A stretch of 53,430 nt of DNA. Source: a virus. Below, one piece after another: positions 24,439 to 48,200 of this stretch. The translations under genes and the position numbers were made by a program. The stretch is taken from positions 1 through 53,430 of the IMG/VR virus record IMGVR_UViG_3300009177_000049; one strand, given 5' to 3'. The notes beneath the pieces were generated by a model. The model was not told the origin of the DNA, made no database searches, and was given only the letters and a program-made list of their open reading frames with translations. Position 1 is the first letter of the stretch; every line of letters begins with the position of its first letter.

Positions 24439-26532
24439 TCACTTGATGTAGCGGTAGTCCGAGTGGACCTCCGCCGCGAGCGGGAACGACTTCATCGGAG
24501 CAGCATCAGACATCAGTATCTTCAACGTCTTCTTCGCCCCGGCTGGACTGATCTGCGCAGTCGGCACCCAGTCCACCACCAGCTCGTCATGGAACTGACC
24601 GACCAGCTGAAGCTGGTTGCTCTGCTCACACCACTGCGCCACGACCACCGCTGCACGCATGAAGATCTCACGGCACAGCGACTGCGTCAGGATGCCGGCC
24701 AGCTTCCCGCCGTACAGCTCGAAGAACCGGATCTGCTTGGTCTTCGGATCCACGTAGTGGTTCTTCCACAGGTCGCCGGTCTTACGATCCGACGGCTTGT
24801 GGTACGCCACGTTCCGGCCACGCCGGTAGCACCCGTGGAAGTACCGCTTCAACAGCGTCCCTGCCACAGGGTGATGCACCCGCATCTCGATGGACGACAC
24901 GGTCACACCCACCTGGTCGTGCAACGACTTCGGTGTGGTGACCGGCTCGAGGTACAGGTTGTACCCGTCAGCAAGCGACAACGCCTGCATCCGACCGGTG
25001 TCCACCACCTCGTTCAGCATCTGGTCCAGCTTGTCCCAGAACGCAACGATCGCAGGGTTGGCATCACGCCAGTCCCACACGATCTTCGTAGCCTCAGCCT
25101 CCGACAGGATCACACCCATCTTCTCGGCGAAGTCCTTCACCGCATCAGGCCCAGCCTGGTAGCCACAGCTCAGCTCACCCACCTTGCCGAACTGCCGCTG
25201 CTCCTTGGTCACCTGCTCATAGGTGACACCGAACTGCATGGCTGCGCCCTGCTTGTACATGTCGTAGCCCAAGTGGTAGCCGTCCAGCTTCCACTGCTCG
25301 CCCGCTGCCCATGCCAGACCGCGTGACTCCACCGAACTGAAGTCACCGACGATCAGCCGGCCAGCCTTGTGGCTGGATGTGAACACCTGGCGCAGGTTCT
25401 GCGCCATCGTCGTGTTGTCCCACTCCGAGGCAGGATCAGCCAGTGTGCTCATGTCCGCAGGATCAGCGAGCCGCTTCAGGTTCTGCATCTGGACGCTGCG
25501 TCCCGTAGTGCGCAGCGACTGACCTGCACCACAGTGCAGGTACTGGTCCATCAGCTTGCCATCGGCAGCCGTGTCGAGGATGACCTGCAGCTTCTTCAAG
25601 CTGCTGCCACCCAGCACCTGCTTGGTCTGCAGCAGGTGCATCACCTCGGCGTAGCCCGCAGCCTTGTCCGGGTCCAACGACCCAGCAGACTGCAGCTTCG
25701 CCTCGATCTTCCCGAGCAGCGCAGCAACATGCTTCTCGTCGAACGACGTAGCCTTCACGCCACGGTCAGCACACCACTCCTTCATCTGCTTCAGGCTGTT
25801 GAGGTTCAGGTCCGGCGACGCACACGTCGCACGGAACTCAGCCAGTGCAGCGTCCTGGTTCTCCAGGTACCGGCGATGCATCTCCTCAACCGACTCGATG
25901 TCGACCGTCCAACCAGCACGGTTCATGTCCATCGTCATCTGCATGTACTCGGTCTCAGCCTTGGTCAGCCGCACCATGTAGTGCTTCGCCAGCTGGAACG
26001 ACAGCGTCGCATCCAGCTCGCAGTACTCGATGAACTCCGTCCACTGATCCGGGTAGAGCTCGACGATCTTCGGGTCGAACGCGAGATCCTCGTTCGCCTC
26101 CTGGCACAGACCCGGCATCGAGAACAGCTTGATGCCATCCATGCCACTGGCCATCTTGTCCACACCCAGCAGCTGCGGCGCAGCAGCAGCCAGGCCACCA
26201 CCTGCACCAGCAGCACGGGCCACCACCGCCGAGTCGATGAACCGACTCGACGGGTAGTCCAGACCCAGCCAGTCCAGCACCGCCTGCTCGAAGCCGGCGT
26301 TGTGCGCCACGATCAGACGATCACCGATCGCCTCACGCAGACTGGTCGTGCTCACCTTGCGGTTGCACGTGAAGTCGAACGTGTCCTTCTGCAGGATGCC
26401 GCGGCTGTCCTCACATGCCACGCTCCCGATCAGAGCCTGGAAGTTCGGGTCCGCCACGTACCGTGCGAGCCCGTGCTTCGGCAGGCTCACCGATCCATAC
26501 GTCTCGAAGTCGAGACCAATCAGTCCAGCCAT
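24439..26532 (-). CDS. Family A DNA polymerase with 3'-5' exonuclease
   Basis: This 697-residue protein has a proofreading domain (Exo I D8-F-E10; Exo II AHNAGFEQAVL near 80; Exo III YCELDAT near 170) and a family A polymerase domain. Motif A is D397-F-S-S-V-E-S-R, motif B RQFGKVGELSCGYQ, and motif C HD649E in QFHDELVV. Motif A (usual DYSQIELR) and the Gly-rich motif B are divergent in the way of phage replicative polymerases. ATG 26532 is preceded by AAGGAGG at 5 bases, so I reject the in-frame ATG 15 bases earlier. Confidence 0.93.
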   Translation of the reverse strand: MAGLIGLDFETYGSVSLPKHGLARYVADPNFQALIGSVACEDSRGILQKDTFDFTCNRKVSTTSLREAIGDRLIVAHNAGFEQAVLDWLGLDYPSSRFIDSAVVARAAGAGGGLAAAAPQLLGVDKMASGMDGIKLFSMPGLCQEANEDLAFDPKIVELYPDQWTEFIEYCELDATLSFQLAKHYMVRLTKAETEYMQMTMDMNRAGWTVDIESVEEMHRRYLENQDAALAEFRATCASPDLNLNSLKQMKEWCADRGVKATSFDEKHVAALLGKIEAKLQSAGSLDPDKAAGYAEVMHLLQTKQVLGGSSLKKLQVILDTAADGKLMDQYLHCGAGQSLRTTGRSVQMQNLKRLADPADMSTLADPASEWDNTTMAQNLRQVFTSSHKAGRLIVGDFSSVESRGLAWAAGEQWKLDGYHLGYDMYKQGAAMQFGVTYEQVTKEQRQFGKVGELSCGYQAGPDAVKDFAEKMGVILSEAEATKIVWDWRDANPAIVAFWDKLDQMLNEVVDTGRMQALSLADGYNLYLEPVTTPKSLHDQVGVTVSSIEMRVHHPVAGTLLKRYFHGCYRRGRNVAYHKPSDRKTGDLWKNHYVDPKTKQIRFFELYGGKLAGILTQSLCREIFMRAAVVVAQWCEQSNQLQLVGQFHDELVVDWVPTAQISPAGAKKTLKILMSDAAPMKSFPLAAEVHSDYRYIK

Positions 26533-26543
26533 GCTGGCCTCCT

Positions 26544-27257
26544 TCACAGGCCGAGGATCTCATCCTCGTCCACTCGGAACGGATACAGAATCTGCAGCAT
26601 CACCGGACAGCACGGCGTGCCCTTCAACCCACGCGCATGCGGGTTGGCAGGGCAGAACATGCAGTGGTCCGACGGACCGAAGGTCACGTCGCCAGCGATG
26701 ATCGCTGCCTCAGCAGCACGAGCCTCGTCCATGAACTGGCCGAGCTCGGTGGTACTGACCCACGCCCAGTCCATGTTGTCAGCCCACGGCTGCACGATGT
26801 GGATGGTCACACCCTTGGCCTTCGGCGCAAGAGGTGCGAAGCAGGCTGCGTAGTACATCAGCTGCTCGTTGCCCACCACATCCACACGGATCCGACCTGT
26901 CTTCAGGTCGAGCACATGGATCTCGTCCTGCGTGTACAGCACCAGGTCCACTGTCGTGTCCGGTGCGCCGGCCAACCAGGTGGCCTTGATGCTCTGTTCC
27001 ACCAACACCTTGAACCTGCGGTTACCCCGCAGCTCTGCCACATAGGCGATGGCCTTCGCCATCATCTGCATGTCAGCGTTCGGCAGCTCCATGATCTTGG
27101 CGAACAGCTCGTGCATGTCGCTGCCCCTGTTGGCAGCGGTGTCTGCCGTACGGTCATCGACCGGCGGCTCCCATCCTGGGATCGCCAGTTCCAAGTTGGC
27201 AGATGCGTGACACACCATCTGCCTGCCAGCCACGCTGGCACTGAAGCGTTCCACCAT
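26544..27257 (-). CDS. DUF2800 / Cas4-RecB-like nuclease
   Basis: This 237-residue protein has PD-(D/E)XK marks: D104 in TTVDLVLY, D117-L-K119-T-G, and an E-Q-L-M-Y-Y motif after it. One Cys near the N-terminus (C16) and a C-terminal cluster (H-C-M-F-C-P ... C-C-P) match the arrangement in DUF2800 and iron-sulphur RecB-like nucleases. It lies between the polymerase and the DUF2815-like gene, the typical phage replication/recombination trio. ATG 27257 follows GGAGAG; an ATG 21 bases upstream is less likely. Confidence 0.8.
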   Translation of the reverse strand: MVERFSASVAGRQMVCHASANLELAIPGWEPPVDDRTADTAANRGSDMHELFAKIMELPNADMQMMAKAIAYVAELRGNRRFKVLVEQSIKATWLAGAPDTTVDLVLYTQDEIHVLDLKTGRIRVDVVGNEQLMYYAACFAPLAPKAKGVTIHIVQPWADNMDWAWVSTTELGQFMDEARAAEAAIIAGDVTFGPSDHCMFCPANPHARGLKGTPCCPVMLQILYPFRVDEDEILGL

Positions 27258-27281
27258 CACTCTCTCCGTTCGTAACATGGG

Positions 27282-27321
27282 AGTGTGGCCCAGCCCGAAC
27301 CATCACAGGCTGGGCCACACT
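27282..27321 (-). other. Intercistronic hairpin upstream of the DUF2800 gene
   Basis: A perfect 14-bp stem (27282-27295 with 27308-27321) closes a 12-base loop between the ssDNA-binding-like gene stop (27325) and the nuclease start (25 bases on). There is no U tract. Confidence 0.65.
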
Positions 27322-27324
27322 GGA

Positions 27325-28002
27325 TCAGTCGACGAAGATCTCGTCCTCGTCGACAGCGACGCCGCCGCCGAAGCGGTCGCCGTCAGCCTTGAACACCGCC
27401 ACGCTGGCCGAGGCACTGAAGCCCGGCAGCTTGCCGCTGATGAAGGCGTACAGGTTGAGCGTCGCTGCCACGTAGCAGCCCCCGTACATCTGATGCACCG
27501 TCTGCCCGATGGGCTTGATGACGGGGTACTGCAGCAGGTCCGGGTCCGGCACGAGCAGCTCGTCCTCGTTGTTCACGATGGCCTTGAGCTCGATGTCCGT
27601 ACCCTTGTTGCCGTTGACCTTGACGTTGACCACGCACTCAGGTGCGAGGGCCAACGTCTTGTCACCGATCTCCTTGATCGGGATGTACGGCGGCTGGGAT
27701 CCCCAGTCGCTGTCGTCCACGATCTTCAGGATCCGCTTGATCTCCGCTGCAGTGAGAGCGTCACGCTTCTCACCCTTGGTGCTCTGCTCCAAGCAGTACG
27801 GCAGGAACAGGTCCTTGATGTGAGTCACGAACTTGTCCAGCTGTGCCTGCTCGAGCAGCAGGTTGAAGTCCGGCGCCACATCGGCGGCGTCCTTCGGGTA
27901 CTGCGACGTACCGTTCCTCACGACTGCCCTCTGGTAGTCGAAGTTCGGGAACGACAAGCGACCGTACACAGTGACGGTCTTCGGGTTCTTACCGGTGGCC
28001 AT
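27325..28002 (-). CDS. DUF2815-like single-stranded DNA-binding protein
   Basis: This 225-residue protein starts at ATG 28002 with GAGAGGGG upstream. It has TVYGRLSFPNFDYQRAVV at the N-terminus, a beta-rich core (VNVKVNGNKGTDIELKAIVN; GGCYVAATLNLYAF) and a very acidic end (GGVAVDEDEIFVD). That layout is typical of DUF2815, a T7 gp2.5-like ssDNA-binding family with an acidic tail for partner contacts. Its neighbours (DUF2800 nuclease and polymerase) fit. Confidence 0.75.
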   Translation of the reverse strand: MATGKNPKTVTVYGRLSFPNFDYQRAVVRNGTSQYPKDAADVAPDFNLLLEQAQLDKFVTHIKDLFLPYCLEQSTKGEKRDALTAAEIKRILKIVDDSDWGSQPPYIPIKEIGDKTLALAPECVVNVKVNGNKGTDIELKAIVNNEDELLVPDPDLLQYPVIKPIGQTVHQMYGGCYVAATLNLYAFISGKLPGFSASASVAVFKADGDRFGGGVAVDEDEIFVD

Positions 28003-28094
28003 GTGCCACCCCTCTCGTTGAGTTGGATGATGTGTGTTGCGTACCGCCACACGCGCGAAAAATTTCTTCGCTGATCCAGCGGCTTGAACTGTGG

Positions 28095-28133
28095 CCGGCG
28101 CCCCTGCCTGTTGATAGCAGGCAGGGACGCCGG
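28095..28133 (-). other. Intercistronic hairpin downstream of the VWA gene
   Basis: A 16-bp stem with one mismatch (28095-28110 with 28118-28133) and a 7-base loop starts 4 bases after the VWA stop. No U tract follows. About 90 bases separate it from the next start; these include a short inverted A/T run (GCGAA...TTCGC near 28057). Confidence 0.65.
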
Positions 28134-28137
28134 AGTC

Positions 28138-29217
28138 TCACGAGTAGTGCTCGTCGTAGTACGAGCCCACGACGTACACCGACTGACCGACCAGCAGCGG
28201 ACGCACCTCGCTGGCCATCCACCCGATGCACTCCGACAGGTACGTCGGCCTGTTCACCAGGCTGATGTCCAGGACAGTGTCGATGTGGTGACCACCGCAC
28301 GCCTGACGCAGCTTCTTCTCGGCAGCAGGGCTGCTGTCGTAGTCAGCCACGCAGATCACCGTGCCCCAGTCACGGGTGAACACCGGAGCCAGCTGCTCGT
28401 AGTGCGTACCACCGTAGGTGGCAGCACCGAGGATGTCGTCCACGCTGTACGTGCCCGGCTCCCAGTACGTCACGCCATCGGACACGATGGCGAAGTGGGC
28501 GTTGGCCATGTACGACATGGCCACCACGTCCTCGACGATGGCACGCACCGTCGGCTCCGACATCGAACCCGACACATCGAACACCACCAAGTTCTCCTTG
28601 ATGGGATCGTGGTGAACCACTGCCTTGTGGTCACCGATGGTGGGCCGGTTGCGGTTCAGCGTCATCATCGACCTGAACACCAGGCTGCCCTGCTTACCGG
28701 GCAGCTTCGAGACCACGGACTCCAGCTTCGCAGCCACGTCCTTGATCGCCTTCGCGATCTCCACCTCGAGGTCCTTCCAGACCTCGGGCAGGATCTCACC
28801 CTTCGGCACCTCCGGGTCGAAGGTCACCGCGCCGGCCTCCGGTGTGTTGAGCAGGACACCTGGGTACCAGGCCGGAGAGCACAAGCACTCCTCGTCCTCG
28901 CCCCACTGTGCGACAGGGCAGTGGCCCTCGTGCATGCTGAACCCGTCCAGCAGGTAGCCCTGCAGTTCGGTGCTGTGGTCACCCGACATCAGCGCCTCGA
29001 CCAATGGCGTACGCACGACCTGGTAGATCAGGTCGCTGAGCTGGACGTAGTCCAGCGTGTACACCTTGGCGAAGAACAGCACCGTCTCCACGTCAGGCAG
29101 CAGGTCCATCAGAACCTGCTTGCTGAACTTCACGCCCGGCTTGATCTCGAAGAGATCGAGGCTGGCCTTCAGATCAGAACGGGAGATCGTCGGCGAACTC
29201 TGGTTCGTTGTCGTCAT
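28138..29217 (-). CDS. VWA-domain protein paired with a MoxR-type ATPase
   Basis: This 359-residue protein has a helical N-terminal half (about 1-205) and a C-terminal von Willebrand A domain with an intact MIDAS metal site: D214-x-S216-x-S218 in VVFDVSGSMS, T271 in YGGTHYE, and D292 in CVADYDSS. In MoxR/VWA systems the VWA protein binds substrates that the AAA+ partner remodels. Its start lies 44 bases inside the end of the AAA+ gene, showing coupled expression. A CHEGH-like Cys/His cluster around 95-113 (C100, C111, C113) may bind zinc. Confidence 0.85.
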   Translation of the reverse strand: MTTTNQSSPTISRSDLKASLDLFEIKPGVKFSKQVLMDLLPDVETVLFFAKVYTLDYVQLSDLIYQVVRTPLVEALMSGDHSTELQGYLLDGFSMHEGHCPVAQWGEDEECLCSPAWYPGVLLNTPEAGAVTFDPEVPKGEILPEVWKDLEVEIAKAIKDVAAKLESVVSKLPGKQGSLVFRSMMTLNRNRPTIGDHKAVVHHDPIKENLVVFDVSGSMSEPTVRAIVEDVVAMSYMANAHFAIVSDGVTYWEPGTYSVDDILGAATYGGTHYEQLAPVFTRDWGTVICVADYDSSPAAEKKLRQACGGHHIDTVLDISLVNRPTYLSECIGWMASEVRPLLVGQSVYVVGSYYDEHYS

Positions 29218-30145
29218 CGTCGTCAGTTCCTTCCTTCTCGAATCGAATCTTCTCCAGCTCCAAGAGCTGAAGGTTGAGGTCCAGGTTCTGCGCTTGCACA
29301 GGCGTCAGCCGGCTGTTGCCAACCAGCTTCAACGCCTTCGCTCCGTACGCAGGATCGACCTTCTTGCCAGTAGTCAGGAAGACATACTGGATCTTGCCCA
29401 CTTGCATGGCCCGAGTGTTGTTCATGGCCAGCAGCTCCGCCAGCGCAGCTGACTGCACCTCACGAAGCTGAGCCTGACCGATCAGGTTGCGGACACTGCT
29501 GCCCTTCAGCACAGCAGGAGACGACGACTTGTTCTTCAACGAGTCGAGGATCTCGAACATGGGCAGCACCTCGCTGTCCAGCAGAGACTGCATCTCCAAC
29601 GAGTCCCGCATCTCGGGCAGCAGCCCGAGCTGGTCGACCATGATCTGCGCCAGCTTCCGCTTCTCACGCTTCAGCTTCCGCGGATCAGGGACCGGCAGGT
29701 GCAACAGCCTGTCCTCCAACGCCTTGTCGTAGGACACGATGCTGTTGGACGCGCCGATCAAGAACACCTTCGGCAGGGTCAACCCTGCCACCTGCCTCGA
29801 CGTGAAGATGTCGAGCAGACCGTTGTACACCTCGGGGAAACCCCGAAGCAGCTCATCGAAGAAGACGATGTCTCCCTCTTTGAGGTTGGTCCACAGCGTC
29901 GAGTGCAACAGGCTCAGCCTGGTGTTCTCGTCGACCGGCATCATCACACCCTCCAACTCCAGCGGACTGATCCGACTGACGTTGACGATGTGCAGCTGAC
30001 AACCGATCTGTGCTGCGGCCATCTCCATGATCGTGGACTTGCCACAACCAGGAGGCCCGAACGCATGGGGCATCGGGCTCCGCACGTCACCGGCCATAGC
30101 CATGACGTACAGCTTGAGCACTGACTCAAGATCGAACACGCTCAT
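29174..30145 (-). CDS. MoxR-type AAA+ ATPase
   Basis: This 323-residue protein has Walker A G30-P-P-G-C-G-K-S-T38, Walker B IVFFDE (D97, E98), sensor 1 N134 in LIGASN, and an Arg at 146 in LEDRLLHL. SPLELEGVMMP at 60-70 matches the MoxR-specific region. The tail is very acidic (GTDDDDDNEPEFADD). MoxR ATPases act as chaperones, often for metal insertion or complex assembly, with VWA partners. ATG 30145 is preceded by ACGGAG at 11 bases, a loose spacing. Confidence 0.88.
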   Translation of the reverse strand: MSVFDLESVLKLYVMAMAGDVRSPMPHAFGPPGCGKSTIMEMAAAQIGCQLHIVNVSRISPLELEGVMMPVDENTRLSLLHSTLWTNLKEGDIVFFDELLRGFPEVYNGLLDIFTSRQVAGLTLPKVFLIGASNSIVSYDKALEDRLLHLPVPDPRKLKREKRKLAQIMVDQLGLLPEMRDSLEMQSLLDSEVLPMFEILDSLKNKSSSPAVLKGSSVRNLIGQAQLREVQSAALAELLAMNNTRAMQVGKIQYVFLTTGKKVDPAYGAKALKLVGNSRLTPVQAQNLDLNLQLLELEKIRFEKEGTDDDDDNEPEFADDLPF

Positions 30146-30181
30146 GTACCATCATCTCCGTTCGCTGGTGGAGCGACTGAA

Positions 30182-30214
30182 CGAGGGCGGCAGGCTGCAC
30201 ACCTGCCGCCCTCG
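30182..30214 (-). other. Intercistronic hairpin upstream of the MoxR gene
   Basis: A perfect 13-bp stem (CGAGGGCGGCAGG at 30182-30194 with 30202-30214) and a 7-base loop lie 8 bases after the preceding stop and 37 bases before the MoxR start. There is no U tract. Confidence 0.65.
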
Positions 30215-30222
30215 GGTCTGTC

Positions 30223-30699
30223 TCAGACCTCGTCGAGCTCGATGCCCGTGATCTCGGCGCCGACCTCGGCAGCCGACGGCTGACCCGACGCCTGCACCGG
30301 CACGGCCACCTCGAGAACCTCGAGGGACTCGTCGACCCAGACCAGACGGTCCGTGTCACCCGACTCGAGCAGACGCAGCAGCACGCTGTCGTGCGTCAGC
30401 TTGATGAGCGTGCCCGGCTTGGCCGGCACACCCTCGACCGCCTCCTCGAAGACGAGGTAGCCGATCGAGTCCGTCGGCTTCTCCATCTTCGCCTTGACCG
30501 CGTCCGCGGCCTCGGTCAGCGGCGCGAAGAACGCGTCGACGGCCACCTGGAAGTCGGCCTCAGCCTGGCTGAAGTCCTTCCGCTGGCCGAGCTCGTTCCA
30601 CTGCTCCGCGTTGAGCACGGTCTTACCGCTGGTACCGAACACGTCCGTGCCCTGCACCAGCACCCGGTCGTTGACCAGGTTCTGCGTGGTGAAACCCAT
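30223..30699 (-). CDS. Unknown acidic protein
   Basis: This 158-residue protein starts at ATG 30699 with GAAGGGAA upstream. It has MGFTTQNLVNDRVLVQGTDV, a helical middle (FQVAVDAFFAPLTEAADAV) and a beta-rich, acidic C-terminus (LEVAVPVQAS ... GIELDEV). It is flanked by hairpins and a strong ribosome site, suggesting high expression. No family is recognised. Confidence 0.7.
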   Translation of the reverse strand: MGFTTQNLVNDRVLVQGTDVFGTSGKTVLNAEQWNELGQRKDFSQAEADFQVAVDAFFAPLTEAADAVKAKMEKPTDSIGYLVFEEAVEGVPAKPGTLIKLTHDSVLLRLLESGDTDRLVWVDESLEVLEVAVPVQASGQPSAAEVGAEITGIELDEV

Positions 30700-30727
30700 T
30701 GCGCTTGTTCCCTTCGTGAACGACGGC

Positions 30728-30919
30728 TCAGGATCCTTCGCCGTACTCCTTGCCAGCGGTGATGGCACCGCTGGCCTTGGCTGCCTTGAACAGGCTGGCC
30801 AGGTTGGGGGCCGACGCTGCCTGAACCATCAGGTCCAGGCTATCGTCGACCACCGACACAACTCGCCCATGCGTAGGGCAGGTGCCCTGCCACATGCGGC
30901 GACACTCAGGACAGAACAT
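30728..30919 (-). CDS. Small zinc-binding protein
   Basis: This 63-residue protein begins M-F-C-P-E-C-R-R-M-W and has a second C-P-T-H pair, a classical Cys-x2-Cys/Cys-x2-His zinc knuckle, then a helix (LASLFKAAKASGA). ATG 30919 overlaps the upstream stop. Similar tiny zinc-knuckle proteins are common in actinophage replication operons. Function is unknown. Confidence 0.7.
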   Translation of the reverse strand: MFCPECRRMWQGTCPTHGRVVSVVDDSLDLMVQAASAPNLASLFKAAKASGAITAGKEYGEGS

Positions 30920-31077
30920 CAGTCCATCCTCTCGCTGCTCAGGATCGTCACGTCGAACGTGATCCCCTGATGCGTGGTCACCTCGATGGTGGGCTGCTGC
31001 TCGATCCTCGAGCAGAGCTCAGCCACATCAGCCTCGGTGTTCTCCGTGTCCACGTCCACGATCAGTGACACCATCAT
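30919..31077 (-). CDS. 52-residue unknown protein
   Basis: The product begins MMVSLIVDVDTENTEADVAE and looks like a small ferredoxin-like alpha/beta domain (strand-helix-strand: VSLIVDV, DVAELCSRIEQQ, EVTTHQGITFDVTIL). I choose ATG 31077 because it overlaps the TGA of the upstream membrane peptide in the same ATGA style as its neighbours. No function is known. Confidence 0.65.
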   Translation of the reverse strand: MMVSLIVDVDTENTEADVAELCSRIEQQPTIEVTTHQGITFDVTILSSERMD

Positions 31078-31178
31078 GCTCGGCCTGCCATCTGTGCCAT
31101 AGCCACGACCCACAGGATCATGGCCGACACGATGAGCAGACCGAACACGAGCTGCACACTCTTGGTTGCGGCTCTCAT
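31074..31178 (-). CDS. 34-residue single-pass membrane peptide
   Basis: The peptide begins MRAATKSVQLVFGLLIVSAM, continues ILWVVAMAQ, and ends with Arg/Ala. A basic N-terminus precedes one transmembrane helix. ATG 31178 overlaps the upstream stop and its TGA overlaps the next ATG, so it sits seamlessly in the operon. It could tether replication or host-takeover factors to the membrane; that role is speculative. Confidence 0.6.
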   Translation of the reverse strand: MRAATKSVQLVFGLLIVSAMILWVVAMAQMAGRA

Positions 31179-32026
31179 TCCAACGCCTCCATGATCGAGT
31201 CGAGGCTGTCCTTGTAGTCGATGGTCTTGCTCGCCTGGACCAACTCGGAGATGTTGTCACCCTCGATGTGCAGGGCAATCGCCTCGTAGATCTTGCCAAG
31301 CATCTGCTTCTCCGCATCGAAGTGCGTGGTGAAGTAGCTGCTCGCCCCCCAGTAACCCTCGACCAGGTCAGCCTTGACCAGGCTCAGGTCGTAGCCATAC
31401 CCGTGGTACTTGGCATAGCGTCCGACCTCACGCAACCCGTTGTACTGGCTGATGAAACCAGCCCGCCAGTTCGCCCTCTTCGAGGGCATCATCGGCAGAG
31501 CTATCTGCGCGGCAGGCATCCGAGCCTGCGCGCTCGCCTTGAACGGCAGCATCGACCGGGATGCTTGCTGCGATGCAGCCCAGATGTCCGGGAACAGGTA
31601 GCTCCGCATGTCACGGAACGTGTCTGTCTCCAGATCCCAGCCCACACCCAGCAGACCGAAGTCGAACGACTCGATCACCTGCCCAAGGCTGGTGGTCGGG
31701 TGCCCATCGGTCAGCTTGTACACCAGGTTGTGCTCGACACCCGTAGGTGACATCAGCTTCAACGAGTTGGTGTGCCACGTCTTGAACCCGTAGCGCAGCC
31801 ACCTCGCCCACACACGATCGAACCGATCGACGAAGCTGTATCCGTTGTCGAGCAGTCGCTGCCCGGTAGCAACGAGAACGTTGCCAGTCGGGCAGAACAG
31901 GTCGACATCGGTGAACGCATTGCCCATGCCGTACACATCGGCTGCCACCAGCGAGCCCGCAAGGAACACGGGCTCGCCGGCCAGCAGCTGACGCACGTCG
32001 GCAATGACAGCCGACGGCGTCGACAC
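31175..32026 (-). CDS. Nucleotidyltransferase-fold protein
   Basis: This 283-residue protein carries a polymerase-beta-like nucleotidyltransferase signature: G24-S25 in VFLAGSLVAAD followed 15 residues later by D40-V-D42-L in NAFTDVDLF. A third acid is not obvious. The rest is helical with Trp- and Tyr-rich segments and unassigned. Such enzymes modify RNA, proteins or small molecules. In a phage early operon it could be a host-targeting or RNA-modifying enzyme. The substrate is unknown. Confidence 0.65.
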   Translation of the reverse strand: MSTPSAVIADVRQLLAGEPVFLAGSLVAADVYGMGNAFTDVDLFCPTGNVLVATGQRLLDNGYSFVDRFDRVWARWLRYGFKTWHTNSLKLMSPTGVEHNLVYKLTDGHPTTSLGQVIESFDFGLLGVGWDLETDTFRDMRSYLFPDIWAASQQASRSMLPFKASAQARMPAAQIALPMMPSKRANWRAGFISQYNGLREVGRYAKYHGYGYDLSLVKADLVEGYWGASSYFTTHFDAEKQMLGKIYEAIALHIEGDNISELVQASKTIDYKDSLDSIMEALE

Positions 32027-34287: not shown

Positions 34288-34506
34288 TGTAGACACCCCA
34301 TGTAGACACCCTGTGTACAACTGCAAACGTGCAGGTCAGACGGCACATGGTGCATGTAGACAGCCTTCACATACCAATCTCACCAGAAGGTGTACAACAT
34401 ACACCTAGGGATGAGGTTAGATACGAGAAGGTGTCTACACACCACATGCACCGCCTGACCTGCACAGATGCAGTTGTACACAGGGTGACTACACCAGGTG
34501 TCTACA
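34288..34506. repeat. Mirror-symmetric array, centre 34397, related to the array at 12060
   Basis: Every part has its mirror at the exact expected base around 34397. TGTAGACACC 34288 pairs with 34497. TGTAGACACC 34301 pairs with GGTGACTACA 34484. CTGTGTACAACTGCA 34311-34325 pairs with 34469-34483. CAGGTCAG 34332 pairs with CTGACCTG 34455. TGTAGACAGC 34355 pairs with GGTGTCTACA 34430. The centre is AGGTGTA-CAACA-TACACCT (34388-34406). It shares TGTAGACACC and CAGGTCAG with the first array. Probably a protein-bound control region or replication origin. Confidence 0.9.
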
Positions 34507-36228: not shown

Positions 36229-36235
36229 AGTAGTG

Positions 36236-39200
36236 GTGGGCAAGTACGACTCGAGTGCGTTGCAGCCGTGGCTGGGTCAGTCTCAGAACCCTGCTGCCCC
36301 CGAGGGGATGCAGCAGGCTGCGCGGGCCGGTGGTGGTGTGGCCGCCGGCGTCCCGATGTACGACTCGTCCAAGCTGGGTGCGTGGGTGACGGACCCGGAG
36401 ATCGGGTACACGGGTGCAGCGCAGTCCTGGTACACGGGTGCGAACTTCGACGGCACGAACAACGGGTATGACAACCAGTTCGTGAGTGACTACATGTCCA
36501 AGTGGAACAAGGCGTTGGAGGAGGGGACGGCGAACACGTACTTCGAGCAGGAGCATGCGACGGGAATCGTCACCTGGGATCACACAGGTACCGATGGGAC
36601 GCAGTTCAAGTACGGGGATGTCTACGTCAACGGCGACAAGGTCGCCAACATGTACGACAAGAAGGACGGCGGGTTCGACGAGAACACCGCGAACCTTGCG
36701 ATGTCCACGTGGACGTTGAGCAAGGACCAGAAGGCGCACGCGTTCTCGGCCTCCGACCCGTTGCAGCACCTGGGTCGTGAGGTTCAGGCGCAGCGGGAGA
36801 AGGACAACGTCGAGATCCCGCAGCAGCTGAAGGCGATGGAGTTCAACGCGGACGTGAAGGACACGGCGCACCAGTTCGAGGAGGGAACGACCGATGAGGC
36901 GATCATCCTGGGTGGTGCCGCGGGTGGCGCGGCGTTGGGTACAGGTGTCGGTGCGGCGATTGGCTCGACGTTCTTCGGTGTGGGTGCTGCGGTGGGTGCC
37001 CCGGTGGGTGCCGGCATCGGTGCGCTGGTCGGTGGCGTCGGCGCGTTCCTGAACAAGGACAGTCTGACGGAGCAGGCTGCGAGGGCGTACGAGATCACGG
37101 CGCTGTCCACGGACCAGTACGGCTCCGGTGCCGGGATCTCGACCGGTGTCCAGCAGTGGGGTGGTTTCGCGGGCCGGTTGATCTCCCCGCTGCAGAACAC
37201 CGAGCAGGGGCTGTACGACTGGTCCCAGGGTGATGTGGGTGATGGCGAGTCGGCGTTCTACCGGACCGACAAGTCCGGGAAGTCGACGACGCCGGCGTGG
37301 GTGAAGGTGGCCGATGTCGGTGCTGCGCTCGGTGACGGTGCGCTGCAGTTCGCGTCCCCGATCGGTCGCGGGCTGTACATGGCACAGATGGGTTCCACTG
37401 TCGCAGGGGAGACGGCGGAGCTGGCGCTGACCGGTGGCTCCCAGTTCGACTACAACAAGGGCGGGTTCGACAACGTCTTCAAGGACGAGGCGGGGCACTT
37501 CAGCCCGTCCCAGGGTGCGGCTGGGATTGCGAAGATCGGTGTCGATGTGGCGCAGATCGGTCTCGCCAGAGGGCTGTTGACGAAGTCGTGGGCTGGTCGT
37601 GAGGCTGCGGGGCTCAGCCAGATGGGCGCCGCACCGGGAGCCGTAGGCACTCTCGGTACGGCTGTCTCGGGTAGGGCGGTGGCCCGTGATGTGCTGCCGA
37701 CGTGGGCCGGTGGAAGGACTGCGGCGCAGAAGGCTGCGCTCGAGGCCGGCGGCAAGGAGGAGATCGAGTCGGGCTACCGGTACATCACCGACGATGTCGG
37801 GCAGGTGGTCGGCAAGAGGTACCGCACGATCTCCCTGCTGGCTCCGTCCGAGGCGATCTCGAGTCTGAGCACGCGGGTGATCGCGTTGCGCGGGAAGGAG
37901 GTCGGCCAGGGTGCGTTGAAGGCCGACGACTTCTACCGGGCCGCACAGTCGATGGCCCAGGGTGAGCGGCGGTTCACCACGGCGCTGGTGAACGGGTTCG
38001 GCGAGGGCACCGAGGAGGTGATCCAGTCTGCGCTCGAGTCGTACTCCCACGGTCACGGCGTGGGCAGCATGCAGGACATGGTGAACTCGGGGCTCTACGG
38101 GGCTGCCGGTGGTGTCGGGATGGGTCTGGGCATCAACGCCCACTCCCCGACGGCGGACGAGAAGCTGGACGGTCAGGTGAAGATCGCTCACTACTTCCAG
38201 ACCGGTGGCGAGGTGCTCTCCGATGAGGCGTTGGCGTCGATGACGCCGACGGAGAAGCGTGCGAAGGCGCAGATGGGGAAGCTTGAGCGGGAGACCGCGA
38301 AGGCTGCGTTCACCAAGTACGCCGACGACCGGGCTGCGGACTTCACCGCAGGTGTCGCAGGCGTGAACAAGGTGGTCGACGCGATCAACACGTCCAGGTC
38401 GGAGTCGTTGAAGAACTCCGCGCCGCACACCGACCAGCCGTTCGTCATCACCCAGATCGAGGATGCCGGCCAGGTCGATGCGAACGGGCAGCTGCTGCGC
38501 GGCAGCGTCCCCTCCGATGCGGTGGTCTCCTCCGGTGCCCAGCTGATGCGGAACTTCGGCAACCGGATGCGTGGTATCACCGAGCAGCTGACGCTGCTGA
38601 AGAACAACGAGGTGCTGAAGCAGGCCGACCTCGACAAGAAGCCCGCCGACGAGGGGCTGCAGAACGACCTGGCGAAGATCCAGCAGCAGACCAAGCAGAT
38701 CAACGAGATGATCCGGCTGGGTCAGGCGTTGGGTGCCGAGATCGACGACCGGGTGGGTCGCATGTACGACCCGAACGCCTCGGTTGCGGCCCGTGCGGCG
38801 GAGACCGAGGGGCTGAACCAGTTCCTCCGGGACGCGTTCAACCGGCGTGCCGGTGATGTGAACGGTGTCCCGGTGACCACCGACGAGGAGCGGATGGCGT
38901 TGGCGCGCGCCGTGTCCCAGGTGGTGACCAGGGACCCGCAGGACCAGTCGGGCTCCTACCAGGTGCTGGTGCCGCAGGCGTCACTGAAGCTGACGGTGTC
39001 GAACTCCGACAACGTCCTGGAGATCAGCCACGCGATCCTTCCGGCGATCCGCGGCGACTACGACGGCGACAAGATCAGGACCCAGAACCAGCTGCTGCTG
39101 GACGAGGACATGTTTGTGTCGGCTCGTGCTGGTATGCATTTCCTCGGGGCCGGCACCAGCGTGAACGTGAAGGCCCCGAAGTACGAGAAGTGGGTGGTGC

Positions 39201-42200
39201 AGTACATCCAGGAGGCGTTGACGTCCACGGAGCCGGCGCTGGTGAACGCCGCCACGGGTGCGATGACGTCGGTCACCGAGGCGATCCGCAACCGGTATGA
39301 GGCGATCATCGGTGACGAGATCCTCGATCCGGTGTTCGCCAAGTTCTTCGCTGCGGTGCGTACCGGTGACGGTGACGCCCGCAGCGTCCTGATGGACGGG
39401 CTGCTCGAGGTGGCCGACGGTCCGATCAACACGTTCGCCAGGGGCAACCTGAGCAACGAGTGGCTGTGGATGGACCAGCTGGTGCGGGCCCAGTTCCAGG
39501 CGTTCCAGGAGGACTACGCCTCCTACCGGGCGATGCTCGGCCCGACACCGGGGACCGTGAAGAAGGGCCGCCCGGTGAAGCGTGTGTCCGAGGCACGGGA
39601 GCGCCGGGCCGCACGGTCCGCCACCACCGGTCAGACCATCGGGAACTGGCTGGCCGGCGACCTGATGTTCCGCAAGTTCCAGAAGCTCCACTACACCTCC
39701 CTGTCCGCCTCCGTGCAGTCGTCCGCGAACCCGACGCAGCGTGCCGAGCTGTATGCGCTCGCCTCCGAGTACGAGCTGCTGTCGGCTATGGCGACCCAGT
39801 CCGAGCTGGACCGGGTGCATGGGGTAGACGAGATCACGGCACGGGTGATCGCCCAGCTGAAGGCGCTCGCGGACAACGCCACCGACCTGGATCCGGCGCT
39901 GTCGCAGACCCAGGCGATGGCGGTGGTGGCGAACGTCGCGGTCCTCGACTACGACATCGACTCCGACGGCAACGTGACGACCACCGGACGTGAGATCACG
40001 TTGGCGCAGATGCTGCTGAAGCAGGAGCTGCGCCGGGACCGTGTCGCCAAGGACGCGATCTTCGAGATCTCACCGGAGCTGCAGGCCAAGCACGCCCGGC
40101 TGCGGGCGATGACGAAGCCCGACGGCCAGGGCGTCAAGGGCTCCGGCCTGAACGCGCAGCGGGCGTTCGTCGAGGTGTTCGGAGCGTTCCAGCTGTTCAC
40201 GCTGATCGGTGACGCAGCCGGACTGATGGGACCCCACATCAGTGTGGAGCAGTACGTCAGGTTCTACACCGCCAAGGACGAGGGCGAGCGGAAGTCCGAG
40301 GACTACAAGCTGAAGAACGAGGCCGCCTACCTGGGACGCGAGTCGGCGGCAAACATGCCGTACTCGGTGGCCGAGGTCGCAGCCGGCGACGTGTCCCCGT
40401 ACCGCAGCGTCATCGACTCGATCATCTCGGTGGGCCACAACCGCATCACCCTCGACAAGAAGATCGCTACCGGCAACGACTACAACGCGCACCACCTGAA
40501 CGGCGAGTTCTCCGATGCGCACTACCGGGCCTCGGAGGCGTTCAAGAACTCGCACAAGGATGTCCGGGAGGCGCTGTTCAAGTTCTCCGAGCTGTCCGGG
40601 CGTCGTGTCGACGAGCTCACCCTCGACATGGTGCAGCGGATGCTGGACCAGAACCCGACGTTCGCGGAGAAGGTGATGGCGCTGATCCCGGACGCCGCCG
40701 CGAACGCCGTCTTCGAGCGTCGCGGTGACGACCTGTACATCGCCAACTGGGTCTACAAGATGTTCACCATCACCAACGCCGACGAGGCGGAGATGCACTA
40801 CTGGCGCAACGTGATGCTGGCCCAGTGGGAGTCACTGGGCATGCACGCCCGTACCGAGAAGGATGCGGACGGTCACCAGGGTCGCCGGTACAACAAGCTC
40901 GAGCGCCGCATGTTCAAGATCATGTACGACCTGTCTCCGCAGATGCAGCAAGACGGCGGGCTGCTGATGACGAAGTTCATGCACGAGCTCCAGAACGCCA
41001 AGAACCTGGAGCAGTTCCTCCGCTGGGTGAACACCACGCCGGGGATCCGTGGCAACCAGGCACCCATCGTCGGCTGGTACGACGACTCCGCCGCCTTCGA
41101 TGCGGACAAGGCGAACGGTGGCTGGTCGACCGGCATGAAGGGCGTGACCCAGCGTGAGGCGATCGCCTCCCTCGAGGTCGGGGCCCAGTACCTGAAGAAG
41201 GACCTGGTCGAGGAGCAGAACATCCAGCGGTCCGACAACCAGGTGTACCTCGCCATCGAGCGGGTCCTGAAGTCCGACGCCGGCGCACCCAATGTCACGG
41301 CCACCACCGAGGACCGCAGGCTCTACGACGCGTTCGTGGCGTCGCTGAAGAACTCCCGCGAGATGAACGTGGGGCTCGGGCCGCAGGCGATGATGTACCA
41401 GGTCATCGGAGCGGTCCGCGGGTTCTACCCGAAGGCCCACACCAAGGGCGAGAACCCCGACAACGTGGACCCGGCTGGTGCGTTCGACGCACAGCGCGAC
41501 GCCTACGACTACGTCACGAACTACGAGCGGTTCAAGGCGTCCATGACGGCGGTGAACCTCGACGCGATCAGCGGCAACATGTCGCAGCTCGCCAAGGACG
41601 GCGTCGTCACGATGGACGACGACGGACGCCAGGTCGAGTGGGAGATGCCGGTCGACTCCGAGGGCAACCCGACAGCAGAGTCGGTGGCCAAGGCGCTGGC
41701 GCTGTTCTCCAACCCCGACACCAGGCCGATGGCCAGGTCCGTGCTGTTCCCGCAGGTGATGGAGCGTGGCCCAGAAGGCAGGCTCACCACCCAGATGCTG
41801 GTCGGCAAGGACCTGAAGTCGCTGCTCGAGGGCGACCACTACAAGAAGATGTTCGCCCACGACAACAGCATCGACAACGACTCCGCGATGCGTTACTGCG
41901 CGATGCTGGAAGCCACCGCCCGTAACCACAAGGGCCACTTCTCGGTGCAGCGGATCGTCAACGACATCGTGATCGCGGAGACCAGTGGTGCGAACCACAC
42001 GCTGTCCACCTCCGAGATCGAGCGTGCCGCGCAGCGGGCGTTCCGCACGGTGGCGAAGATCGTGCAGGACGCCGCGGCCATCGCCTCGGTCCCCGACGGC
42101 ACCGGGGACGCCACCTTGAAGCAGGTGATGTCCGAGGTTCATGCGGCACGCCGGATCCAGCGCACCGCAGGGCTGCTGGGCTTCGGTGCCCGGCCCGGTG

Positions 42201-45200
42201 AGGACGTCAAGGAGGCAGCCGCGCGGTTCGCCTACACCGATCTTGCCCTGGACCAGCTGGTGGCACAGCGTCGCGGGGAGATGAACGACGAGATCACCCA
42301 GATCGAGGCGAAGCTCGTGCCCGGCCTGGACATCCACGAGGTCGAGAAGATCGAGCGTGAGACGTTGGGCGCCCGTGCCGACCTTGAAAAGTTCGAGGCC
42401 CGTGTCGAGCTGCTGCGCTCCGACGACCCAGCCGGCCAGGCCGTCGACATGTTCTCCTTCCACTCCGATCCGTTGACCGAGACCGACCGTCAGCGGGAGA
42501 TCATCCAGTACATCATGTCCGCGCCGGACAAGTTCCGCCGGAAGTCGCAGTCCACCATCCAGATCATGATGAAGCTGTCCGGCCAGCTCGAGGACAAGTC
42601 CCGTTCCGGGCAGGTGGACCTGTCGGCTTCGGAGTGGAACCACCTGTCGCGTGCCACCATCACCGTGTTCCTCGACGACATCGTGTCGATGGGCTCCGGT
42701 GGCATCTCGGTCTCCCCGTACCCGGACGCGACCAGGCCCGACAACACCCGCTACTACGACACGTCGTACGCCTACCTGGCCGACACGCTGCTGGACCCGA
42801 CGAAGCCGCTGCTGCTGGCCGGTCGGGACATGCACAGGTGGGCCGGGCTGCAGGGTGACATCCCGCCCAGCCCGACCGAGCTGAAGAAGACCATCGAGCT
42901 GAACCTGTACCCCGACTTCCGGTACGGCCCGTGGACCGGGGACATCCCACGAGCCTCCATCGAGGCCAACCAGCGGCTCGACTCCGCCGCCGCAAAGCCG
43001 GTGATCGGGATGACCGGCAACGCGCCGAAGCGTCAGGCAGCGAAGTCGGCTGCCACCAGGCGCACCTTCCGGGTACCGGGTGCCGAGCTGCTGTCGAAGG
43101 TCACGCTGCAGGCCAGCGACCTGAACAGGTCGCTGTTCGACGACGTCGAGGTGACCCATCCCGGTGACCGTGCGGTCGCGCGACCACTGGCACAGCTGAA
43201 CAACCGCTTCGCTGCCCGCGTGATGCTGCGCCACTACCAGCCGGGAACCTACCTCGACGCGACACCCATCGACCTGCTGGCCTCGGACCTGAACCTCGGC
43301 CACGTCTTCCACACCAACGACAACGCGGTGGCCTCCGGCTACAAGGAGATCCACCTGGACCGGCTGAAGGTCGCGCTCGAAGCCTCCGGTGTCGACCCGA
43401 GTGACGTGGCCGGCATTGACATCGAGTTCTTCCATCCCGACATGCAGCCGGTCGAGACCCAGGAGGAGTCCGACAAGGGCCGCACCTGGTACAACAACCT
43501 GTTCTTCGAGGGCACCAGCTTCAAGCGTGACTCGGATCGGGCCGAGTCCCTGAACGCCACGCTCTGGTTCACCGAAGGCTCCATCAACCCGGTGATGCAG
43601 GCGTGGGGCCTGGACGCCTCGAAGCTCGGACGCTCCGCCATCGAGGTCATCGAGACGATGACCCACGCCGAGCGCAAGGCCATCGAGAACGACTGGGCCA
43701 CCGACCTGTCCCATGTGCTGCGGATGAAGACCCAGGAGATGCTGACCAAGCAGCTCGGTCTCGGTGACCCCGAGAAGGGCTCGAAGGGGATGCTCGAGCC
43801 GGAGTTCTACAACGCCGTCTACAAGGACATGAAGCTTCAGCACCTGGTGGTCGGCAAGGCACAGGGCACAGGCGACCGGCTCGTGTGGACCGCCGAGCAG
43901 GTGATCGCCTGGCAGCAGGCCAACCCCGGTGTCGCGCTCCCCATCGACGACGCCAAGCTGTACATGCCCTCCGACACGGTGCTGAACTCGATGCTCGGTG
44001 AGCAGGGCACCCAGGGTGCCACCCGCGTCTTCGACGACGTGCTGTCCGCCGACCTGTCCCAGGTCCCCGCGTACCGGGGCGTGTCGACCAAGATGCTGGA
44101 GAACTTCAAGCACGGGCTGAACGGCGAGTCGAAGCCGTTGCCGGAGACCAGGATCGCCAACCGTGCCCGGCAGCAGACGCTGCAGACCCGTGCCTACCTC
44201 GACGAGAAGACCCGCAACGCCTACGAGGCGAAGATCAGGTACCTCGCCGAGAAGCGCGAGGAGATCTGGGACGACCGCGCCAACTACAACGGACAGACCG
44301 GTGAGGGCGGCTGGAACCCGCGCACCAACCTGGGTCGTGCGTTGCAGACAGCGGACCTGATGCTGCGTGCCGAGAACATCTCGATGGACTGGACGGCAGG
44401 CGGGCTGCCGTTCTTCGGCTCCCGCAAGAACAAGGACATGGAGCTGTCCAAGATGCTGCTCCACGAGCTCGAGGCGGCACTCGAGGTCAAGGGCAGCCGG
44501 TCCGGCTGGATCTTCCGCGAGGACCAGGCGTCCGACGCGAACGCAGGGCTGATCTCCGGGGTCACCCTGTCCACGTCCTCGGGTGCGAAGCGGATCGCAC
44601 CCGGCGACCTGGTCGTCGTCGAGCTCGACTCGTTCCGTGGTAACGCCGCGAAGATGCGGGAGCGTCTGGACTACATCGCGGACCAGGGTGCCACCATCGT
44701 CCTCGGTGCCACCGACGGTGAGGCTGACATGCGTGTCGAGGCCACCCAGTTCATGGAGTCCATCGACTACATCAGGATGGCCGGCTCGGGACACGTCTAC
44801 CAGCCTGCGATCACCACACCCCGGTTCCAGAACCAGCGGGCCCTGATCTCCTCGCTCACCGCCACTCGTGGCGTGTCACCCCGTTCGCACCTGGCGATCT
44901 TCAACGTCCAGGGGCTCAACGTCGAAGAAGGCTCGCTGTGGGTCGACTTCAAGAACCCGCGTCTGCACGCCATCGCGGAGACCCTGAACCTGGTGCCGAC
45001 CAACTACCTGGCCGGGTTCAACGTCCCGGTCGACGAGATGACCGACGACCGGATCCACAAGACCCAGATCACACGGGTCCGCAACCAGGTGCTCGGCTTC
45101 AAGAACGACCCCGAGGGCCGACAGATGCTGCGTGACATGGCGCACGGTCCCGAGACCGAGCAGGGCAAGAAGCTCACACCCGCCGAGCGTGCCCACCTCG

Positions 45201-48200
45201 ATACCGAGTTCGACTTCTACTTCGACCGGATGATCGACCGGCTCGAGCTGCACGCCGGCTCCGTCCTGCCCCAGGCCGGAGACGACTTCGGCACCGGGGA
45301 CATGATCCCGCTGGTCGGACCCGGCGACACCGTGCTGCTGTACCGGCACGGACACGAGGCGCCGGACTGGGACAAGGTGATGACACAGAAGCGCGTCACC
45401 CGGCCCGCCAAGCACGAGCCGGCGAACATGGCCGTGTTCTCCTCGACCCGCAACCCGAACGCTACATCCCACACAGGGACCGTCGTGGAGTTCAACCCGC
45501 GCTCCAACTACGGCCTGTCCGTCCGGCTCGAGATCGACCTACAGGTTCTCGGTGACAAGAAGGTCCTGGAGTGGAACGGGCAGAAGTACGAGCTCACCGC
45601 CCGTCCCGACCGCATCCAGTTCCCCACCTACCAGGGCAAGGAGCACGGCTTCCTCACCAACTGGGACATCGACGGCGTCGGCAGCCTCGATGACGCCATG
45701 AGCAAGGAGTCGACCGACGGGATGATCGTCGACCACCAGTCGGCGTTCAAGTTCCTCGGCATCGACTTCACCGACGACGTCGCCACCTTCCTCGGTGTCG
45801 ACGCCACCACAGCCGTCGACTTCCTGAAGCTGATCGCAGCCCAGGCTCCGAGGATCCAGGTCACCGCAGCCGACGAGATCCTCAACTCCGAGCGGATCAC
45901 CGAGGCCCTGCGCAGCCAGCTCGACGGCTTCGCCCTCACCAACGCCGAGACAGTCGACCCGTCGTGGGTCGACAACATGGCGGACCCCGCATCGGTGGAG
46001 GCGAAGATCGCCACCTCGATGATCGTCTACCTGATGACGCCCGGTGCTCGTGTGGGGGACGTGCTGAAGTCCGGTGGCTTCAACGACAGGACCAGCAGCA
46101 TCGACCACAAGTCGGTCGAGATGCCGATTCTTTTCACCCAGGTCTTCGACAACTCCGGGCTGGACTCCGATCTCCGCAACGAGATCAACGAGCGGATCAA
46201 CTCCCAGTTCTACAACCCGAACCAGGACGGCACCGGCTACTCGATGTCTAAGTCGTGGCGGTTCGAGTCCCGCCACGCCGACCCGAGGAAGAACCAGGTA
46301 GGCGTCCTGCAGTTCGCCGAGGCCCACTCCGCCGGGGACAACCCCGTCATCAACGGGATGTCGTTCGACGAGGCGACCCGGTCGAACGTCAGCCAGCACT
46401 CTGCTGCCATCGCCTACCAGGCGACCGGTGCGCTGACCGCACACTCCTACGAGGTGGCGAAGGCCCAGCTGTTCTCCTCCACCACCATCGAGCCGCACGC
46501 CCGCGACACCGAGGACGGCGGGCTGTGGCGGATGCTGACCGGCATCCCGTTCGAGGACCGTCGCGCCGGATCCTTCTGGAAGGCGGCGTCGCCGGCTGAG
46601 GCCGAGCGCATCGACCTCGCCCGTGACGCCATCATCCAGGATCGGGTCGAGATCAAGCAGCTCGACGAGAACGGATGGACCGCTACACAGCGCACCGAGT
46701 ACAACGCCGCCGCGGTCAGTGTCATGCAGACCCTCGGGCTCGACCCGCTGCAGGTGAAGCTCGTCGACTACTGGGTCCGGCAGACACTCGGGATGCCGCA
46801 CGGCACCGACGCCAACGGCGACGACGTCGGTAAGGTCAGCGGCAGCGCAGCGATCGAAGCGGTCAAGGACATCGCCTGGAACGTGAACCACAACTACCTC
46901 CCTGTCGTCGGAGCCGAGGTGCCGCTGCTCCACGTCCACGACCTGCAGGCGATCTTCCGTGCCAACCAGCACCGGTCCCCACAGTGGCAGCCGAAGGCCG
47001 GGCTCGAGGACAACAACATCAAGGCCGGGACCTGGGACGAGTGGGTCAAGACATCGCTCGGTGGCGCGTTCACCTCCGACCACCTGTTCGACCCGCTGTA
47101 CCTGCTCGCCCTCGACGGGTACATGCACACCTACCAGTCGGCCACCCGCGACCTCCTCGACCTGCCGGTGTCGATGGACGTGCTGGTCACACAGAACCTG
47201 ATGGACGAGACCACGAACCGGCTGTTCGTCTCGGTCTCCGACGAGCAGCAGCTGATCGCCACCGACCCGGTGACCCTCGACCTGCAGCGCGCATCCCTCG
47301 ACAACCTGATCGGTGGACAGCGGGTATCGGGCCGGCTCGTAGCGAAAGCCGCTCCGGTCTCCGAGGTCGCCAAGCGTCGTGACGCACGACGCAAGTGGCG
47401 CAAGGAGAACGGGATCCCGCTGCCACTGGACGTCTCGATGAAGGACTTCCTGAAGAACGGCGGAACCTTCACCGACCGGGCCACCACCGTCAACGGCCTG
47501 TACCGCGCCCTCATCAACCTCCGAGTCGGTACCGCGCTGCTCAACCCTCAGCTCTACGTCTCGATGGGACCCGAGCAGTTCGTCCGAGGCGTGCTCGACC
47601 GCACCGCAAACCTGCTCACCATGCAGTCCACCGCGGTAAGTGTTGGACGGAAGGGCCAGGTCAAGGGCCTCGCCGGTCGGCAGGCCCGGCTCACCGAGCG
47701 CCTGGCCGACACCACCCTCGGCGCCGGCCTGTCCCGGCTCGGGCTCGAGGCCGCGTACCGCCCGGACCAGCTGGTCAAGCTGAACAAGCTGTACACGGTG
47801 ATGGGCCAGCGCAACGACTTCAAGTCGATGGTCTACAAGGAGCTGTTCTTCCTGCGCCCGCACGAGCCCGGTGTCGGGAAGGCCGAGCGTTGGCTTGAGA
47901 ACTACGCCAAGCTCGGCACCAAGGTGCAGGACCCGACGTGGGGTACCCGCGCCAACACGCTGGCACGCCGCTACATGGAGGCTGCGCTGTCGCACATCAT
48001 GGCGACCCCGACGATGAACCAGCTCAGCGTCGACCGGCTGATCGCGGAGATGGCCACCAGCCCGCAGTTCTTGAAGCAGAACTTCCCGACGGCACACGAG
48101 GCCGGGATGAACTCCGTCGCCCAGCTGCGCTCGTTGAAGCCGACACCGCTGTCGCTCACGTTGCGCGGGATCTACGAGCCGCTGTCGGAGTCGCCGAACA

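Follow-up and report, generated by a model that had tools for sequence, protein, structure and literature searches.

What does a protein of more than four thousand residues do in a phage with a genome of about 54 kb, and why does it carry a motif typical of cellular RNA polymerases? The question is raised by virus DNA of 53,430 nucleotides, further called the window (IMG/VR record IMGVR_UViG_3300009177_000049). A giant gene of this kind, longer than 13 kb, was described in 2020 as one of the largest viral genes with an unclear role (PMC7302621), and relatives of its product are annotated either as "tape measure protein" or as "hypothetical protein."

The giant gene and its genomic context

The following features of the window define the context of the giant gene.

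36233..50428, plus strand: giant ORF, 4731 aa, GTG start (ORF list; full-length homology to the giant proteins of relatives)
36896..37048, plus strand: glycine-rich hydrophobic (membrane-like) segment, residues ~222-272 (sequence; weak DUF6861 match under the cut-off)
50419..52428, plus strand: portal gene, directly 3' of the giant ORF with a 10-nt overlap (54% identity to Burro portal gp28)
18264..32014, minus strand: leftward gene block with replication and further presumed early functions (tblastn with Burro genes; DNA_pol_A match)
34288..34506, no strand assigned: long imperfect inverted repeat in the non-coding divergence region, a candidate promoter or origin region (inferred)

The window is syntenic with Microbacterium phage Burro (Burrovirus) in its leftward replication genes, giant gene, portal, and capsid; the portion of the capsid gene inside the window shares 82% identity with Burro gp29. 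Genes for a primase/polymerase, a primase, a helicase, a DNA polymerase, an exonuclease, and an AAA-ATPase were identified in the leftward block by tblastn with Burro genes. The phage has its own family-A DNA polymerase in addition to a primase/polymerase and helicases. Full-length homologs of the giant protein are Burro gp27, Araxxi gp27, Akoni gp31, and MissAmericana gp30, and the family as a whole is shared by short-tailed phages that infect soil actinobacteria: the Microbacterium phages Akoni, Araxxi, Arete, ArMaWen, Burro, and Phedro and the Arthrobacter phage MissAmericana. IMG/VR contigs contain further members. In Burro virions, a band of ~250 kDa, bigger than any other Burro product, was assumed to be gp27, intact or as a processing product (PMC7302621). 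The membrane-like segment and the adjoining portal, both pointed out in a preliminary description of this DNA made from the sequence alone, were found again in our analysis.

Searches of Pfam, PHROG, and PDB with the whole giant protein as a single sequence yielded nothing relevant, including no match to T7-like polymerases. In the literature, we found no link between this family and two-barrel RNA polymerases; its listing in the supplementary viral survey of PMC10770324 is not excluded. Among the most conserved stretches outside the barrels described below are residues ~4090-4390 (window ~48500-49400), with ten invariant residues within 50 starting from residue 4161 and a Y-D-P-R sequence near 4122. 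Its probable role is that of an ejection domain, either structural or inserted into membranes.

The inverted repeat in the divergence region has 75-nt arms that are 81% complementary, and its predicted single-stranded DNA fold has an energy of -75.8 kcal/mol (z = -12.8). Such repeats are present in the divergence regions of all four phages compared (window 34288-34506, L006:17821-18027, L005:17914-18003, and L007:16467-16803), with Burro, MissAmericana, and Akoni among the phages that have them. Their sequences differ between phages, being GTTAC-rich in Burro, Araxxi, and Akoni. Within the window, TGTAGACA/TGTCTACA (as TGTAGACACC or GGTGTCTACA) is confined to two clusters, at 11948-12184 and 34288-34507, each formed by tandem repeats of 11-13 nt in both orientations. 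These clusters resemble iterons, or operator/promoter arrays belonging to an origin or to a phage regulator.

A probable beta'-like barrel in the N-terminal part

The motif that suggests a polymerase lies in the N-terminal fifth of the giant protein, in a region for which six features can be listed.

38930..39070, plus strand: catalytic signature R900-D-P902...G-D942-Y-D944-G-D946 of barrel A (DPBB-A, beta'-like)
38885..39127, plus strand: DPBB-A core, residues 885-965 (PDB profile search; hhalign to jumbo-phage beta')
38435..38542, plus strand: possible first half of DPBB-A, residues 735-770, FVITQIEDA...VPSDAVVSSG... (strands 737-741 and 763-766 in the AF2 model)
38543..38872, plus strand: mostly helical insertion within DPBB-A, residues 771-880 (AF2 secondary structure)
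37991..38026, plus strand: motif N-G-F-G-E-G-T-E-E-V-I-Q, residues 587-598, role unknown (N, E, E, E, and Q invariant across 19 homologs)
39614..39697, plus strand: speculative trigger-loop-like segment ATTGQTIGNWLAGDLMFRKFQKLHY, residues 1128-1155 (conserved G-x-T...G...F-R)

The motif is not a chance occurrence, because both D-x-D-G-D (where x is Y, F, W, N, or H) and R-x-P are retained without exception by 20 aligned homologs plus ArMaWen, down to 20-25% identity. Its three aspartates make up three of the 14 invariant Asp residues in the entire giant protein, and the residue following the third of them varies across the family (Lys, Thr, Arg, Gln, or Met). A Ser at position +8 from the Arg (R-x-P-x5-S), overlooked in the preliminary description, is invariant both in the giant proteins and in beta' of jumbo phages. 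Moreover, the columns R, P, S(+8), D, D, and G, which do not vary in the 19-sequence giant-protein alignment, match equally invariant columns in a separately built alignment of jumbo-phage beta'. Two very divergent giant proteins with ~22% identity (L039 and L040, from IMG/VR 3300023078_000005 and 3300042922_001297) retain R-Y-P and D-[HY]-D-G-D, which suggests a much larger hidden family.

The preliminary description had placed the signature at the correct nucleotides (R900 starts at 38930 and D946 ends at 39070), with residue numbers one too low. The distance it gave from the Arg to the first Asp, 42 residues compared with 35 in Escherichia coli beta' (R425 to D460, NC_000913 rpoC), is correct. 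It had also named loss of the D-x-D-G-D aspartates in homologs as grounds for rejection, and all three are invariant in ~20 of them. On the other hand, its equation of V-L-E-I-S-H with the I-x-L-H-P of beta' is unsupported, as the His is not conserved (SH, SQ, GH, and GA are observed).

A profile of the 80-residue core compared with all PDB sequences retrieved beta' of the AR9 nvRNAP first (E=0.002) and PhiKZ gp55 next (E=0.032), with the motif in register; AR9 beta' had been listed also by broader, earlier profiles, and PhiKZ gp55 by one of these. Direct alignment of the core with the jumbo-phage beta' alignment by hhalign gave a score of 47.8 (P=4.6e-7). A slightly wider core (A2) scored 45.5, compared with 18.3 for the best of 100 column-shuffled controls and 20.0 for the reversed one. 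When the whole giant protein was scanned in this way, only the motif-bearing segments exceeded the reversed controls. The same pattern can be observed in proteins of a Thermus phage, F-R-N-P...G...D-F-D-G-D in gp96 and N-R-R-P...G...D-Y-D-G-D in gp64, and the best local hhalign match falls on it. A Pfam scan with the barrel-A core found nothing.

Structure prediction, suggested as a check in the preliminary description, speaks neither for nor against barrel A. The AF2 model of residues 450-1420, built from 19 sequences, has pLDDT 70 and pTM 0.44 and falls below pLDDT 50 in the motif loops, and a Foldseek search with this poorly resolved model retrieved no RNA polymerase, only non-specific helical matches. 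The possible first half of the barrel resembles the beta' VIT...LP segment by eye only, and residues 735-770 alone gave no significant hhalign match to beta'. The insertion at 771-880 shows little conservation and is far shorter in Akoni-like relatives. Downstream of barrel A, where a two-barrel enzyme would have its bridge helix and trigger loop, AF2 predicts helices, accompanied by the conserved G-x-T...F-R segment; hhalign of residues 1128-1155 with the E. coli trigger loop gave no match, and the resemblance is again by eye. Upstream, the N-x-x-G-E-x-x-E-E-x-x-Q motif (587-598) and the following glycine-rich G-x-G-M helix are as conserved as the catalytic motif.

The preliminary proposal of a two-barrel polymerase is supported on three grounds, namely the profile matches, the invariant catalytic residues, and a beta-like barrel predicted on the same chain. 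Homology of the barrel-A core to beta' of two-barrel RNA polymerases is statistically supported, as judged from sequence comparison.

The predicted second barrel

A two-barrel enzyme needs a second barrel, and hence DPBB-B was sought elsewhere in the giant protein. At residues 533-730, where DPBB-B would precede DPBB-A, AF2 predicts only helices and no strand-rich region. A candidate was found far downstream.

45260..45832, plus strand: predicted DPBB-B (beta-like), residues 3010-3200 (AF2 model of 2740-3330; Foldseek against PDB and BFVD)
45551..45586, plus strand: lysine-pair motif G-D-K3109-K-V-L-E-W-N-G-Q-K3118, counterpart of beta G-D-K-M-A-G-R-H-G-N-K
45704..45706, plus strand: invariant K3158, possibly corresponding to the beta S-R-M-N-I-G-Q region (inferred)

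The location was named from the lysine motif in the family alignment before the structure of residues 2740-3330 was predicted. Only four lysines are invariant in the giant protein, K3109 and K3158 among them, and a second Lys follows K3109 after 8-9 residues in every homolog covering the site. The family pattern at 3085-3170, V-x-L-x-(V/I)...G-D-K-x(6-7)-G-x-K...P, has as its counterpart in E. coli beta V-K-V-Y-L-A-V...G-D-K-M-A-G-R-H-G-N-K-G-V-I-S-K-I-N-P.

The AF2 model of residues 2740-3330, built from 15 sequences, is of moderate confidence (pLDDT 78, pTM 0.54). In a Foldseek search of 350,542 PDB chains with this model, places 1-13 were all taken by RNA polymerase beta or Rpb2 (from Pol I, Pol II, ASFV, and actinobacterial beta, with E-values of 0.01-0.15 and probability up to 0.95), and more of them appeared at ranks 15-19. 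The single E-values are modest (0.01-0.2 overall) and the matches partly redundant; no other fold is enriched. Nor does Foldseek yield RNA polymerases by default, as follows from the solely helical matches of the barrel-A model. In BFVD, the matches were family members from Burro, TinyTimothy, and Truong, followed by RNA polymerase subunits of Moumouvirus, Mimivirus, sheeppox, and vaccinia; the first matches outside the family are thus viral Rpb2.

Sequence profiles of DPBB-B gave no significant match to AR9 beta-C, to the jumbo-phage beta-C set, to the N-terminal parts of gp96 and gp64, or to E. coli beta. In the scan with E. coli beta, the best segment (2851-3151) was barely over the reversed controls. 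A Pfam scan with the barrel-B region found nothing, and sequence-profile searches with this region found no RNA polymerase. Two other leads were dropped: an early DPBB-B candidate at residues 100-140 (GDVYVNGDK), supported by GD words only, and the MarsHill "beta" gene as a reference for barrel B, as it corresponds to the N-terminal part of beta (its AR9 match is g105, annotated as the N-terminus). Overall, barrel B is likely to be present at ~3010-3200, a prediction based on the model and the lysine pattern, with sequence profiles alone being negative.

The main alternative is that barrel A is genuine and the second barrel lies not at 3010-3200 but elsewhere, or within the helical region 530-735 where AF2 failed to show it, which would restore the usual order of B before A. 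The absence of beta from the sequence-profile results for 3010-3200, the poor AF2 model of the N-terminal region, and the placement of B before A in characterized single-chain enzymes (PMC10770324) are all consistent with this possibility. However, PDB and BFVD independently rank Rpb2/beta top among unrelated folds for residues 2740-3330, K3109 is invariant with a partner Lys 8-9 residues further, and AF2 gives helices rather than strands at 533-730. We consider this alternative unlikely, while keeping it in mind.

A second alternative takes the giant protein to be structural, serving in ejection or as a tape measure, with an ancestral polymerase barrel retained but no catalysis. It agrees with the annotation of relatives as tape measure proteins and with the lack of any known activity. 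However, the three Asp, R-x-P, and the barrel-B Lys are invariant amid drift to ~20% identity elsewhere, which points to selection on catalysis and makes a non-catalytic remnant improbable. The barrels could also be those of a primase or of a DNA polymerase resembling PolD, and not of an RNA polymerase, since PolD has the same two-barrel core (PMC4996933, PMC10770324). This is highly improbable, given that the best profile matches are beta' subunits of phage RNA polymerases and that the phage has its own family-A DNA polymerase, primase/polymerase, and helicases. Finally, a chance D-x-D-G-D or a calcium-binding loop can be practically dismissed: short Asp-rich motifs are common and the giant protein contains other D-x-D-x-D sequences, but these are not conserved, the EF-hand and dockerin loops require a Gly following the third Asp, a position taken in this family by the five other residues listed above, and the shuffle controls, the Asp invariance, and the PDB profile search effectively refute this explanation.

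Proposed function and comparison with known polymerases

Based on the computed evidence (the motif and its invariance, the homology of barrel A to beta', the beta-like predicted fold of 2740-3330, and the synteny), the giant protein is probably a virion-carried two-barrel DNA-dependent RNA polymerase fused to a pore-forming or tape-measure-like ejection protein. Activity data are lacking, and several points stand against a polymerase: barrel A is not resolved by AF2 and its proposed first half has no profile support, DPBB-B has only modest Foldseek E-values and is not seen by sequence profiles, a trigger loop is not recognized, and the reversed barrel order is without parallel in the single-chain enzymes compared. 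The apparent presence of both catalytic barrels on the giant protein suggests that the polymerase is probably injected with the DNA and reads the first phage genes.

In the proposed enzyme, D942, D944, and D946 of DPBB-A (residues ~735-950) would hold the catalytic Mg2+, and K3109 and K3118 of DPBB-B would hold the RNA 3' end and the nucleotide. A single active site formed by both barrels is inferred; the barrels may come together when the protein folds, or as separate fragments left by proteolytic cleavage into two. With a reversed barrel order, the active site would have to be assembled from parts ~2100 residues apart, by folding back or by cleavage. The ~250 kDa band of Burro would be compatible with cleavage. 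A parallel for such processing is provided by AR9 g078 (record L056:1-1572), a virion RNA polymerase subunit cut from a larger protein, with the polymerase domain alone present in virions.

By analogy with P23-45 gp96, and with N4 as an analogy rather than a homology, the giant protein may be packaged near the portal and ejected with the DNA; packaging in this phage is inferred, being reported only for Burro. Glycine-rich hydrophobic segments could anchor the ejected protein in the envelope. The ejected enzyme would then transcribe the leftward early genes, taken to enter first, before either the host polymerase or phage regulators come into play, both promoter choice and timing being inferences.

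With somewhat less assurance, we favor the interpretation that these proteins form a new lineage with the beta' barrel first and the beta barrel ~2100 residues downstream on one chain of 4400-4700 residues, possibly cut into two interacting subunits, and that this lineage is widespread in ~54 kb actinobacterial podoviruses. The predicted reversal of barrel order has no precedent among the single-chain enzymes compared (QDE-1, phi14:2 gp66, and P23-45 gp96). The preliminary description had spoken of a new transcription strategy; such a strategy is new among actinophages, whereas phages in general offer a precedent in gp96 of P23-45, a 5002-residue virion RNA polymerase fused to a tape measure (PMC10770324).

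Our interpretation offers a concrete function for proteins that rank among the largest known in viruses and that have long been labeled "hypothetical" or "tape measure." It also widens the range of cellular-type virion RNA polymerases to include actinobacterial podoviruses with 54 kb genomes. Should the barrels prove to be reversed and far apart, this would break with the beta-then-beta' order of characterized single-chain enzymes and have a bearing on the way in which the two ancestral barrels became joined. If the new lineage is real, barrels can be reordered and split by a whole ejection machine. The polymerase function is readily testable in the isolated Microbacterium phages Burro, Akoni, and ArMaWen.

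Among the known systems, P23-45 gp96 (PMC10770324) is similar in being a virion protein of ~5000 residues with membrane segments and a role in ejection. Its D-x-D-G-D is likewise located in the N-terminal fifth (779-783 of 5002, compared with 942-946 of 4731), and its R-N-P...G...D-F-D-G-D is in register with the giant-protein motif, although the hhalign overlap is local, at the motif only. However, both gp96 barrels lie in 327-1124 with DPBB-B upstream of DPBB-A, whereas the beta-like barrel of the giant protein is predicted ~2100 residues downstream; and P23-45 is a long-tailed Thermus phage, whereas the giant protein comes from a podovirus of actinobacteria. The closest proteins by sequence are the jumbo-phage beta' subunits (AR9 g270 and PhiKZ gp55), with the same invariant R-x-P-x5-S...D-x-D-G. 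The jumbo-phage enzymes consist of separate split subunits and occur in phages mostly over 150-200 kb, in contrast to one chain in a ~54 kb phage.

The crAss-like phi14:2 gp66, compared here through PMC10770324, is also a podoviral virion two-barrel enzyme; it differs in having DPBB-B ahead of DPBB-A and a Bacteroidota host. YonO of Bacillus phage SPbeta (PMC5467207) is a single-chain two-barrel phage polymerase with the catalytic Asp triad, and its RNA synthesis is reported to be lost on an Asp-to-Asn change; it differs in its size (~100 kDa), its role in late-gene transcription, and its location outside any giant protein. The N4 virion RNA polymerase is a functional analog, a giant podoviral virion enzyme ejected with the DNA, but it has an unrelated T7-like fold, and no similarity between it and the giant-protein family was reported (PMC7302621). 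The giant proteins of Microbacterium cluster EK and Burro described in the latter study belong to the same family, and no relation to polymerases was proposed there. In gp96, gp64, gp66, and QDE-1, DPBB-B is N-terminal to DPBB-A and close to it on the chain. The giant protein has the defining sequence features of two-barrel RNA polymerases but, as predicted, not this arrangement, and we therefore regard it as a variant form within that class and place it outside the P23-45, crAss-like, and YonO groups.
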